A stretch of DNA of 64,000 nucleotides from Candidatus Sysuiplasma acidicola (lineage in GTDB: Archaea > Thermoplasmatota > Thermoplasmata > Sysuiplasmatales > Sysuiplasmataceae), in NCBI GenBank assembly GCA_019721035.1, contig JAHEAA010000001.1, positions 103,991 to 167,990 on the forward strand, read 5' to 3'. The first letter of the stretch is position 1, and each line of letters starts with the position of its first letter. The translations under genes were made by a program, and so were the position numbers. The notes below the pieces were generated by a model. That model was not told where the DNA came from. It ran no database searches and saw only the letters and a list, made by a program, of their open reading frames with translations. This document shows positions 59,945 through 62,772 of this stretch, one piece after another.

Positions 59945-61192
59945 ATGTATCAGTCTTTCAAATACCGTCTCTATCCATTCCGCAGTCAGGAGATGGAGCT
60001 ATTACGCCAGCTGGATGAACTGAAGTTCCTTCATAACTATGCACTCGAACAGCGTATAGATGCATGGCGCACTGAGAAGAGGTCTGTGGGATATACTGAA
60101 CAGGCTGCCTCTCTCACTCAATGGAGAAACTATGACAGGAACGGTATAGGACGTGTACATTCACAGGTGGCACAGGAGTGCCTTCAGCGCATAGCCGACT
60201 CATACAAACATTTCTTCAGGCGGCTGAAGGAAGGCACAAGGCCCGGCTTCCCGCACTTCAGGAGTGAAGTAACTTCACTGACATATCCACAGGCATACAG
60301 TGCCGTAACCATCACTGAAGGCAGAATGGGCACAAAGCGACTGCACCTGTCGAAGATCGGCGATGTGCCCATCGAACTCCACAGACAGCCTGTCGATGGG
60401 CGCATCAAGACATGCACCGTGAAGAGGGAAGGCGACAGATGGTATGCCGTCCTGACCGTCGAGATACCGGATGCTCCCACGCCACCTGCCACGTCTCCTG
60501 TCAATCCCGTGGGCATAGACCTCGGTCTCAATCGCATTGCAACACTATCGACAGGCGAAACTGTCGATCCACCCAGATTCCTTCGCAAAGCGGAGAAGCG
60601 ACTCAAGCGTCTCGACCGTGAAGTGTCACGTAAGGTCAAACACTCGCACAACAGGGAGAAGGCAAAGCTGCGACGGGCAAGATACTTTGCCAAGATACGT
60701 GACAGGAGAAGGGACTTTGCACACAAACTCACAACACGGTGGACCAGCGGTTATGACCTCATAGCATTCGAAGACCTGAACGTGCAGTCAATGATACGGG
60801 GACTCAACAACGCCAAATCCATATCCGATGCAGGATGGGGAATGCTCAGACAGATGTCAGAGTACAAACAGCTCAAGCGGAGTCATAGATATGTCGAAGT
60901 CTCTGCAAGGAACACGACTCAGACATGTTCAACGTGCGGAGAGTATGCCTACCCTCCGCTCGAACTGAAAGACCGTGTCTTCCGGTGCCCGAACGGGCAT
61001 GTGGAAGACAGGGACATCAATGCGGCCAGGAATGTGGTCGCCCGTGCTTTGGCAGCAGTACCTATAAGAGATTATCTGGATCACAGGGGGTGCAGGGGGA
61101 ACAGTATTTCTCCTATGTCTGACACCATGAGTTGTGCTGCTGTTTCACTCCATTCCACTGGAACTGAAGGACTCTCTATTCCCTCTCCTTGA
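59945..61192 (+). pseudogene. tnpB: TnpB RNA-guided nuclease gene, 3' end displaced by an IS110 insertion
   Basis: RuvC-type TnpB, ancestor family of Cas12, normally guided by omega-RNA made from its own 3' end. Codons 1-374 (to 61066) are native: an N-terminal basic domain, the RuvC Asp in GIDLGLNRIATL, Glu in IAFEDLNVQSM and Asp in EDRDINAARNVVARAL. The zinc finger is altered: CSTC is followed by CPNGH, where relatives have CPxCGH, so one Cys is missing. After PI the frame enters the IS110 end and adds 41 foreign codons to 61192. The native tail AFRAGHARIHACGN resumes at 62606 in frame. The catalytic residues survive, but the C-terminus and the cis RNA linkage are broken. Confidence 0.88.
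61061..61066. repeat. Left copy of the insertion-site repeat CCTATA
   Basis: First copy of a 6-bp direct repeat bounding the IS110-family element; the second is at 62600-62605. Removing one copy plus the intervening DNA restores the tnpB frame. Confidence 0.7.
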
Positions 61193-62383
61193 GCCCAGAG
61201 GCATTCTCTCACGGTACGGTTTGCCGTTCTTCAACATGCTGTGTGTATGATATAGCCATCGTTTGGAAACAATGAACAGTGCCTGTGTGCCCGCCTTCCC
61301 TCTGGCAATCTCCCTGTCATATATTGCCCTGAACTCGGGAACATTGTGTTTCACAAGCGAGGCAGCAACCGTGTATGCGGTGTGAGCGAGATGGCTGTTT
61401 CTCCCTTTGTCGACACCGTATGAACGCGTTTTGCCTCCTGACCCCTCAGTCTTCGGAGATCTGCCACCGTATGTCTGCAGCTTTTCTGCAGTCTCAAACT
61501 GATTTATGTCGCCAATCTCAGAGACAGCCGAGGCTGCAGCAACTGTGCTCACACCCTTCATGTCGTCCAGGAGCCTCACGTCCTTCCGTCCTTCTGCTTT
61601 TTTCCTGATTTCATCATCTATCCGCTTCAGCTCCTGCATCTCGGACCTGAGACGTTTCACGTTCTCCCTGATTTTGAATGCGAATATGCCGCCGGTGTCT
61701 GGAATGCCGATGGTCTCCGACGCCTTCTTCCTGAGTTCTTCAGCAAACTCTCTTCCGAGGTGATTCCTGCTTGCATTGCTCACAACCCTTGTGAGCTCTT
61801 TCACAGATGCCTTCACAATGTTGGCGGGAACGGCATACCGCTCGAGCAGAGTGAGCGCAGTCTTCGACTTCAGATCATCGATGAGCTGTGCAAATTCGGG
61901 GAATACCGCGGCAAGGTCGCTCCAGATGGTGTTCAAAATCCTGGTTATGTTCCTGTCGACCGCCTCATGCATCCTTGTCAGTTCGGAGAGCTCGTCCCTC
62001 TCGTGAGAACGTGCTTCCTTCATGCCCCTCTTCTTCCATGGAATGGAAGCAAGCGTTGCAGCGTCGGCACTGTCGCTCTTTGTCCTGCCCATGTTGTCCA
62101 TATTCCTTGCATGGGCGCTCATTATGGGGTTGACGGCAACAACACGGTATCCCTTCGACTGAAGGAAACGCTGCAGCGGCACATGGTAATTGCCCGTAGG
62201 ATTGATGTAAACACCAACAATCTTCTGATTGTTGCTCCTCTCAATCACAGCGAGCTTCTCTGCAAGCGAAGCCAGGCCCTGTTTGTCGTTCCCTATCCTT
62301 CCCTTCCACATTGTCTTCTCTTCCTCATCCTGCACCTCCACTTCATGCATCTTCTGATGCGTATCTATCCCTACGGACAGCAT
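61145..62383 (-). CDS. IS110-family transposase (DEDD plus Tnp20 domains)
   Basis: 412-residue recombinase that works with a bridge RNA. The N-terminal RuvC-like domain has GIDTHQK (Asp) and TKSDSADAATLA (two Asp). At the position of the usual catalytic Glu (ExTG) it reads INPTGNYH, Asn for Glu. A coiled-coil middle (~120-260) follows, then the C-terminal Tnp20 domain with LLDDMKGVSTVAAASAVSEIGDINQF, YGGRSPKTEGSGGKTRS (the nucleophile Ser region) and KGRNSHLAH. The ATG at 62383 follows AAAGGAGATG. Its stop lies within the disrupted tnpB frame, because the element's right end is only about 78 bases long. Confidence 0.92.
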   Translation of the reverse strand: MLSVGIDTHQKMHEVEVQDEEEKTMWKGRIGNDKQGLASLAEKLAVIERSNNQKIVGVYINPTGNYHVPLQRFLQSKGYRVVAVNPIMSAHARNMDNMGRTKSDSADAATLASIPWKKRGMKEARSHERDELSELTRMHEAVDRNITRILNTIWSDLAAVFPEFAQLIDDLKSKTALTLLERYAVPANIVKASVKELTRVVSNASRNHLGREFAEELRKKASETIGIPDTGGIFAFKIRENVKRLRSEMQELKRIDDEIRKKAEGRKDVRLLDDMKGVSTVAAASAVSEIGDINQFETAEKLQTYGGRSPKTEGSGGKTRSYGVDKGRNSHLAHTAYTVAASLVKHNVPEFRAIYDREIARGKAGTQALFIVSKRWLYHTHSMLKNGKPYRERMPLGSRRGNRESFSSSGME

Positions 62384-62599
62384 TTTATTTCATCTCCTTT
62401 CCATATCCCTTGCAGGGAGTAACGCACCGCATCGCATGCACCTATTGCTGGCCCCAGAGGCCAGAGAATGCCTATCGGCGTGTGTGGTTCAGGGCGGATT
62501 CAGGGCTTGGCGGGACCAATCCCGCATGCTGCCAACGCCGCCCCTCCCTACTTCGAGGATACCGGTCTCCGTTATCCCTCAGGAATATAGGTTGCTTCT
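62384..62599 (-). ncRNA. Putative bridge RNA region of the IS110-family element
   Basis: Non-coding 5' end upstream of the transposase. On the minus strand a stem GGGCGG/CCGCCC encloses a loop with TTGGCAGCA on its 5' side, an inner GCGGGA/TCCCGC hairpin, and GCCCTGAAT on its 3' side. These two 9-mers match exactly the two flanks of the insertion: TTGGCAGCA at 61049-61057 on the plus strand, and GCCCTGAAT as the complement of 62608-62616. That is the expected arrangement of a target-binding loop. A second stem-loop (CTGGCC/GGCCAG) lies closer to the transposase and may be the donor-binding loop. RNA ends and expression are not known. Confidence 0.65.
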
Positions 62600-62605
62600 C
62601 CTATA
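62600..62605. repeat. Right copy of the insertion-site repeat CCTATA
   Basis: Second copy of the 6-bp direct repeat flanking the IS110-family element, directly followed by native tnpB 3' sequence. Confidence 0.7.
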
Positions 62606-62772
62606 GCATTCAGGGCAGGACATGCCCGAATTCACGCCTGTGGAAACTGGACCTCCACCTGCCCGCATGGGCAGGCGAGTCCGGTCGAAGAAGCAGGAAC
62701 CGCCGCAGAACACGCTGACAGCACAATGTGTTCTGTAGTAAGCCACCGTATTTATACGGTGGAGGATGTCAC
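62606..62772 (+). ncRNA. TnpB 3' end and omega-RNA scaffold
   Basis: Native 3' coding end of tnpB (reading RAGHARIHACGNWTST, then ASPVEEAGT) which in this family doubles as the omega-RNA scaffold. Hairpins are visible: CCTGCCC/GGGCAGG at about 62670-62687 and the terminal CCACCGTA/TACGGTGG at 62743-62762, followed by AGGATGTCAC. The guide would be the flanking DNA from 62773 onward, the leader of deoxyhypusine synthase. The IS110 element now separates this scaffold from the tnpB body. Confidence 0.65.

Follow-up and report, generated by a model that had tools for sequence, protein, structure and literature searches.

A Predicted Bridge RNA with Reversed Guide Order in an IS110-Family Element Inserted in an Archaeal tnpB Gene

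Introduction

What directs an insertion sequence to one particular position within a gene? The question is raised by a stretch of 64,000 nucleotides from the archaeon Candidatus Sysuiplasma acidicola (contig JAHEAA010000001.1, positions 103,991 to 167,990 of the forward strand), referred to here in its whole length as the window, which is one part of a 1.97-Mb genome and in which an IS110-family element, present as a single copy in that genome, interrupts a tnpB gene. A first-pass annotation of the window had proposed that a loop in the non-coding end upstream of the transposase is the target-binding loop of a bridge RNA and that its guides specify the insertion site, and the covariation of guides and flanks in related elements favours this proposal. 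In its left non-coding end, and on the strand of the transposase, the insertion sequence very probably carries a bridge RNA that would work as set out below, with guides in an order that differs from that of the best-studied element, IS621.

Boundaries of the Insertion

The following features define the insertion and the gene that receives it:

61061–62610, minus strand: IS110-family element, 1550 bp between the cores, antisense and near the 3' end of tnpB, delimited by empty tnpB homologues and by the same empty-site logic in two relatives (L015 and L042)
59945–61060, plus strand: first (5') portion of the interrupted gene, a tnpB of the RNA-guided endonuclease TnpB family, the remainder of which resumes at 62611, from the family match and the empty homologues
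61059–61060, plus strand: core dinucleotide TA at the junction that is the right end in transposase orientation, from comparison with empty sites
62611–62612, plus strand: core dinucleotide at the left-end junction, CA on this strand and TG on that of the transposase, from comparison with empty sites; the core of L015 and L042 is also TG
62597–62606, minus strand: left sub-terminal inverted repeat CTATAGGAGA
61062–61071, minus strand: right sub-terminal inverted repeat TCTCTTATAG, with one mismatch to the left copy

Two genomes of the same genus contain tnpB homologues without the insertion, in which the insertion point reads GGCGGCAGTAGGGCAGGGCATGCCC, and further tnpB-related copies in the own genome and in the genus cross the same point without extra bases. 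Compared with these empty homologues, the window has positions 61061–62610 and one extra copy of the 2-nt core. In the orientation of the transposase, the empty site is GCCC-TA-CTGCTGCCAA, whereas the occupied site reads GCCC-TG-AATGCTATAGG at the left junction and TATAGG-TA-CTGCTGCCAA at the right junction; as is characteristic of the IS110 family, there is no target duplication beyond the short core. The first-pass annotation had taken a CCTATA repeat, with copies at 61061–61066 and 62600–62605 on direct reading, as the boundary of the insertion. However, the empty sites place CCTATA inside the element ends and the core outside them, so it is not a target duplication but part of the imperfect sub-terminal inverted repeats, which are 10 bp long with one mismatch in the window (TCTCYTATAG) and imperfect in the relatives. 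The position of the true core outside this repeat also explains why the guides had appeared to stop short of it. A 13-nt deletion scar in the tnpB copies of the genus was also considered and ruled out, since several different paralogues, from the own genome and the genus, cross the site uninterrupted.

Within the region 59945–62718, the insertion falls close to the 3' end of tnpB. Since this part of a tnpB gene usually also encodes the guide RNA, the insertion may disrupt both the tail of the TnpB protein and the TnpB guide RNA.

In another genome (G109), the occupied sites L015 and L042 and the empty sites L051 and L053 give the core TG and the same element ends as in the window, the empty target being CCATC-TG-CTCCGCATC and the occupied one CCATC-TG-AATGCTATA...TATAGG-TG-CTCCACGTC. 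The relative at L015 and L042 lies within the last codons of a different tnpB, antisense like the element of the window, and two other copies of that tnpB end are empty. Moreover, when the flanks are joined at the core, uninterrupted reading frames cross the site in L010, with a weak match to the IS66 zinc finger, and in L013, with a weak match to a DDE transposase domain. Near-identical right ends occur in two genomes of the genus at a different target (L035, 1531–1761, and L036, 2064–2294), with the same end at CTCTTATAGG-T; these are truncated right ends of the window type, 93–97% identical, in which the left part of the element is missing, and their target reads by eye like a PIN-domain (VapC-type) gene.

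Guides and Their Targets

The loop that carries the predicted target guides and the sequences that they match are as follows:

62492–62543, minus strand: loop 1, predicted target-binding loop, with the stem GGGCGG/CCGCCC (62538–62543/62492–62497) and the inner hairpin GCGGGA/TCCCGC (62520–62525/62510–62515), from alignment and consensus fold
62527–62535, minus strand: TTGGCAGCA, the 5' guide of loop 1; it is the top-strand guide and the reverse complement of the right target
62498–62506, minus strand: 3' guide of loop 1, GCCCTGAAT, made up of GCCC, the TG core and AAT; it is the bottom-strand guide of the left target and ends in a handshake-like segment that matches the element end
61049–61057, plus strand: right target (transposase orientation), TTGGCAGCA, matched by the 5' guide of loop 1 and entirely pre-existing target DNA
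62613–62616, plus strand: left target, GGGC on this strand and GCCC when read with the transposase; the 3' guide of loop 1 matches it

The loop, guide and flank sequences given by the first-pass annotation, with their coordinates, are exact on direct reading. It had claimed one 9-nt match per flank, which holds for the left-hand match, wholly composed of target DNA. The right-hand match, ATTCAGGGC (62608–62616), consists of four target bases GGGC (62613–62616), the core CA (62611–62612) and three element bases ATT (62608–62610), and hence one third of it is element sequence and only GGGC is pre-existing target. The three element bases beyond the core in the 3' guide are a candidate "handshake" segment.

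A search of 805 genomes for relatives yielded about 16 further elements, whole or partial, with transposases 43–51% identical, all from the same class as the host of the window. The genome-contig scan gave only C-terminal relics and one weak short match, and no relative was found in the viral contigs searched. Transposase remnants 90–98% identical occur in contigs of a Thermoplasmata archaeon and of Candidatus Sysuiplasma superficiale. Among the relatives, L010 and L013 lie inside genes of other transposons (an IS66-like gene and a DDE transposase gene, respectively), and IS256-type (Transposase_mut) elements have L017 and L018 at their two ends.

Covariation of loop and flank among relatives, which had been named beforehand as the observation by which the proposal would stand or fall, is found in both arms of loop 1. 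In 11 elements, and with the core excluded, the summed longest exact match between the 5' arm and the own right flank is 74, versus 42.9 ± 4.3 with shuffled partners (reached in 0 of 5000 shuffles), the best own match being 10 nt and the best off-diagonal match 6 nt. The 3' arm, compared in a fixed register with the own left flank in 13 elements, matches 41 of 65 bases versus 18.5 ± 3.9 after shuffling (0/20000), and the three nucleotides after the core match the own left terminus, being AAT, ATT or TTT in step with it (38 versus 29.4, reached in 7 of 20000 shuffles). In addition, the two sites of L018 and L043, copies with the same guides, share the core-adjacent, guide-matching TTGTG and TGTATTTATA and then diverge. 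The non-coding end thus contains loop guides that match both strands of the own target, as in bridge RNAs and seekRNAs.

The Predicted RNA and Its Donor Loop

The region in which the RNA is predicted and the guides of its second loop are located as follows:

62384–62600, minus strand: bridge RNA region (left non-coding end), with predicted closing stem, 5' hairpin, target loop and donor loop, from the alignment of 13 left ends and their consensus fold
62466–62472, minus strand: 5' guide of loop 2 (donor loop), GGCATTC, reverse complement of the left-end terminus GAATGC
62439–62445, minus strand: 3' guide of loop 2, ATAGGTG, identical to the right-end terminus (TATAGG plus core)

The left ends of the relatives align well with that of the window, and the RNAalifold consensus of the 13 aligned left ends predicts 37 pairs, of which 17 show compensatory changes, the loop 1 stem and its inner hairpin included. 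The predicted order in the RNA is an outer closing stem, the 5' hairpin, loop 1 (target) and loop 2 (donor), and the guides vary among elements while the stems are kept. A search of Rfam returned no family at or above threshold.

It could be argued that the loop is no more than a leader structure in the transposase mRNA and that the matches arose by chance or from sequence shared by the element and tnpB. The left end does adjoin the start of the transposase and folds well, as mRNA leaders can, although in a single-sequence fold its excess over shuffles is modest (z = −1.96). However, when 20000 pairs of unrelated 42-nt flanks were drawn from the window, both flanks matched the 216-nt non-coding end over at least 9 nt in 0.03% of cases (1.8% for a single flank), under a lenient test that does not demand matches on the two arms of one junction-adjacent loop. 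Moreover, own-flank matching over 11–13 elements with unrelated targets exceeds every shuffle, which refutes this explanation in its simple form, and the guides differ between elements whose stems are preserved, so that a mere leader seems extremely improbable.

The donor guides match the junction of the right end and left end (RE–LE junction), as is expected of bridge RNAs and seekRNAs. The three variable nucleotides of the 5' donor guide covary with the own left end (37 versus 27.6 shuffled, 2/20000). The 3' donor guide is conserved in the clade, so its match is one of identity and not of covariation and gives weaker support than that of the 5' donor guide.

Guide Order and Position of the RNA

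RNAs of the IS110 type carry the bottom-strand guide first, while those of the IS1111 type carry the top-strand guide first (PMC11208160; PMC11187229). Guide order was scored by one method on all elements, with the controls read on the transposase strand. In IS621, an Enterococcus IS110 and the archaeal elements L067 and L068, which belong to another IS110 lineage and come from the same genome as L018, the 5' arm matches the left target and the 3' arm is complementary to the right target. The reverse order, with the top-strand guide first, was found in the window, L017, L018, L039, L015, L013 and IS4321, a member of the IS1111 group, and the controls IS621 and IS4321 recover their published orders. 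A caution in the first-pass annotation that the guide order differs from that of the best-studied element was therefore well founded, and the order is the one reported for the IS1111 group. The comparison leaves out two further sets of archaeal IS110 elements, L064–L066 (G209) and L072–L073 (G236), in which the non-coding end is also upstream and the inverted repeats near the termini are long, but whose guide order is ambiguous.

The reversed order could also be an artefact of strand choice, if the element carried a canonical IS621-type bridge RNA on the opposite strand. The stems are nearly self-complementary and, thus, the fold alone does not indicate the strand. Nevertheless, with the transposase strand as reference, the published IS110 order is obtained for four controls and the IS1111 order for IS4321, and a misread strand is accordingly very unlikely.

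The element of the window combines features of both groups. The RNA region lies upstream of the transposase and on its strand, as in the IS110 group of the IS621 type, but the bottom-strand-first order of that group is absent; the top-strand-first order is that of the IS1111 group, but there is no downstream RNA position like that of IS1111, and the right non-coding end is only 84 bp long. This combination is unexpected, although the clade may have been described earlier, as the literature search covered publications other than preprints.

IS621 and the element of the window share the upstream RNA on the transposase strand, the target loop followed by the donor loop, one guide per DNA strand in each loop, a dinucleotide core, a handshake-like segment after the core, a RuvC-like domain and a Ser in the Tnp domain. 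They differ in the guide order within each loop, in the core (CT in IS621 versus T(G/A) in the clade of the window), in the sub-terminal repeats, which are longer in this clade, in the length of the transposase (326 versus 412 aa) and in Glu60, replaced by Asn here. ISEc21, an IS110-type seekRNA element, likewise has an upstream RNA with two target guides and a target within a gene of another transposon, but its bottom-strand guide comes first (PMC11187229). Viewed from the other DNA strand, the geometry parallels that of IS621, which includes handshake bases after the core (PMC11208158), with about 9 nt in the 5' arm and 4–5 nt, the core and three handshake-like bases in the 3' arm. The simplest description would be that the RNA–transposase cassette is inverted relative to the recombination ends.

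The seekRNA elements of the IS1111 group (e.g., IS4321 and ISEc11) resemble the element of the window in the top-strand guide preceding the bottom-strand guide and in sub-terminal inverted repeats with unequal extensions, although such repeats measure 7–17 bp in the IS1111 group and are 10 bp with one mismatch in the window and imperfect in its relatives. They differ from it in the usual position of the RNA, downstream of the transposase, in the Glu that is Asn here and in a shorter transposase; an upstream RNA is known among them as an exception, ISMtsp17 (PMC11187229). The element could thus be a misplaced member of that group whose RNA moved to the upstream end, in which case the bridge RNA would work in the same way. 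However, the transposase has 412 aa versus 330–350 aa in IS1111 members (PMC11187229). Moreover, the closest phmmer matches among the bacterial references tried are full-length IS110 proteins of Alicyclobacillus (E 6e-47) and Enterococcus (E 7e-38). The transposase tree, which includes one IS1111-group reference and has open deep forks and long branches for IS621 and IS4321, resolves no specific relationship of that group to the clade of the window. Membership in the IS1111 group seems rather unlikely on this evidence.

Catalytic Site of the Recombinase

The recombinase is encoded as follows:

61145–62383, minus strand: transposase of 412 aa, with Pfam DEDD_Tnp_IS110 and Transposase_20, NCBIfam IS110 family RNA-guided transposase, and Asn61 at the position of the catalytic Glu

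The N-terminal DEDD_Tnp_IS110 domain (E 3.2e-27) and the C-terminal Transposase_20 domain (E 3.6e-15) both lie above the Pfam cut-off, and the protein passes the cut-off of NCBIfam NF033542 (IS110 family RNA-guided transposase). The equivalents of D11, D102, D105 and S241 of IS621 are kept in the clade (D7, D104, D107 and the Ser of an SG motif in the window). The position of E60, the mutation of which abolished recombination by IS621 (PMC11208158), is Asn in all 13 aligned transposases (those of the window, L010, L012–L019, L038, L039 and L041), within the motif (I/M/V)NPT(G/A)N(Y/F)H. In the other IS110 proteins examined the Glu is mostly kept, with Asp in IS116 and ISBma3 and no clear alignment for L064, L072 and L007. 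The D-E-D-D and Ser signature of the family is thus altered from Glu to Asn, and assignment to IS110 rests on the domains, whereas the claim of the same active site is lowered because of the Asn. A single-sequence structure prediction of the transposase was too poor to be used (mean pLDDT 49).

Proposed Mechanism

In the proposed mechanism, the 5' arm of loop 1 would pair with about 9 nt of the target top strand to the right of the core, and the 3' arm with about 4–6 nt of the target bottom strand to the left of the core and with the core itself, while the next three nucleotides would correspond to the end of the incoming element, as the handshake guide does in IS621. Loop 2 would bind the RE–LE junction of a circular donor with the same polarity as loop 1, its 5' arm being complementary to the left-end terminus GAATGC and its 3' arm identical to the right-end TATAGG-TG. 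The recombinase would then exchange strands at the T(G/A) core, here placing the element in tnpB. The boundaries, the core, the guide–flank matches with their covariation and the reversed order are established at the level of DNA; from them we infer transcription, an RNA–protein complex and strand exchange.

Several observations weigh against this mechanism. The bridge RNA is a prediction from DNA sequence, and the Glu that is catalytic in IS621 is absent from all 13 transposases, so the IS621 model gives no ground to assume activity. In the window, the right target is offset, the nine matched bases beginning one base farther from the core than those of the relatives and leaving one C unpaired, and the left-target matches are short and imperfect (4 of 5 in the window, 1–5 of 5 in relatives). 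Poor fits to the own guides are seen in L012, where the longest run is 4 nt, and in the left flank of L020. The L041 element has a second copy, L011, whose site is likewise a poor fit to its likely guide. Moreover, the shuffle tests ignore relatedness among the elements, though their targets are mutually unrelated sequences.

Implications

The elements of the clade might form a separate branch of RNA-guided recombinases, seen so far only in Thermoplasmata, with an upstream RNA as in IS110, the polarity of IS1111 and a D-N-D-D site, a possibility that we advance tentatively and that falls slightly short of the probable. In the two bridge-RNA groups described so far, RNA position and guide order have been reported as coupled, upstream with the bottom-strand guide first and downstream with the top-strand guide first. 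If the separate branch is real, guide polarity and RNA position would be independent traits, and the transposase–RNA cassette would be inverted relative to the recombination ends. By separating RNA position from guide order, the clade is relevant to the derivation of the IS110 and IS1111 groups from each other. It also adds archaeal cases in which other transposons, or their ends, are the target, namely tnpB twice, IS256 ends, and IS66-like and DDE transposase genes. Finally, IS621 is inactive without its Glu, yet the Asn-bearing elements have multiplied and occupied different targets, and the clade is thus a natural experiment on whether recombination can do without this catalytic residue.
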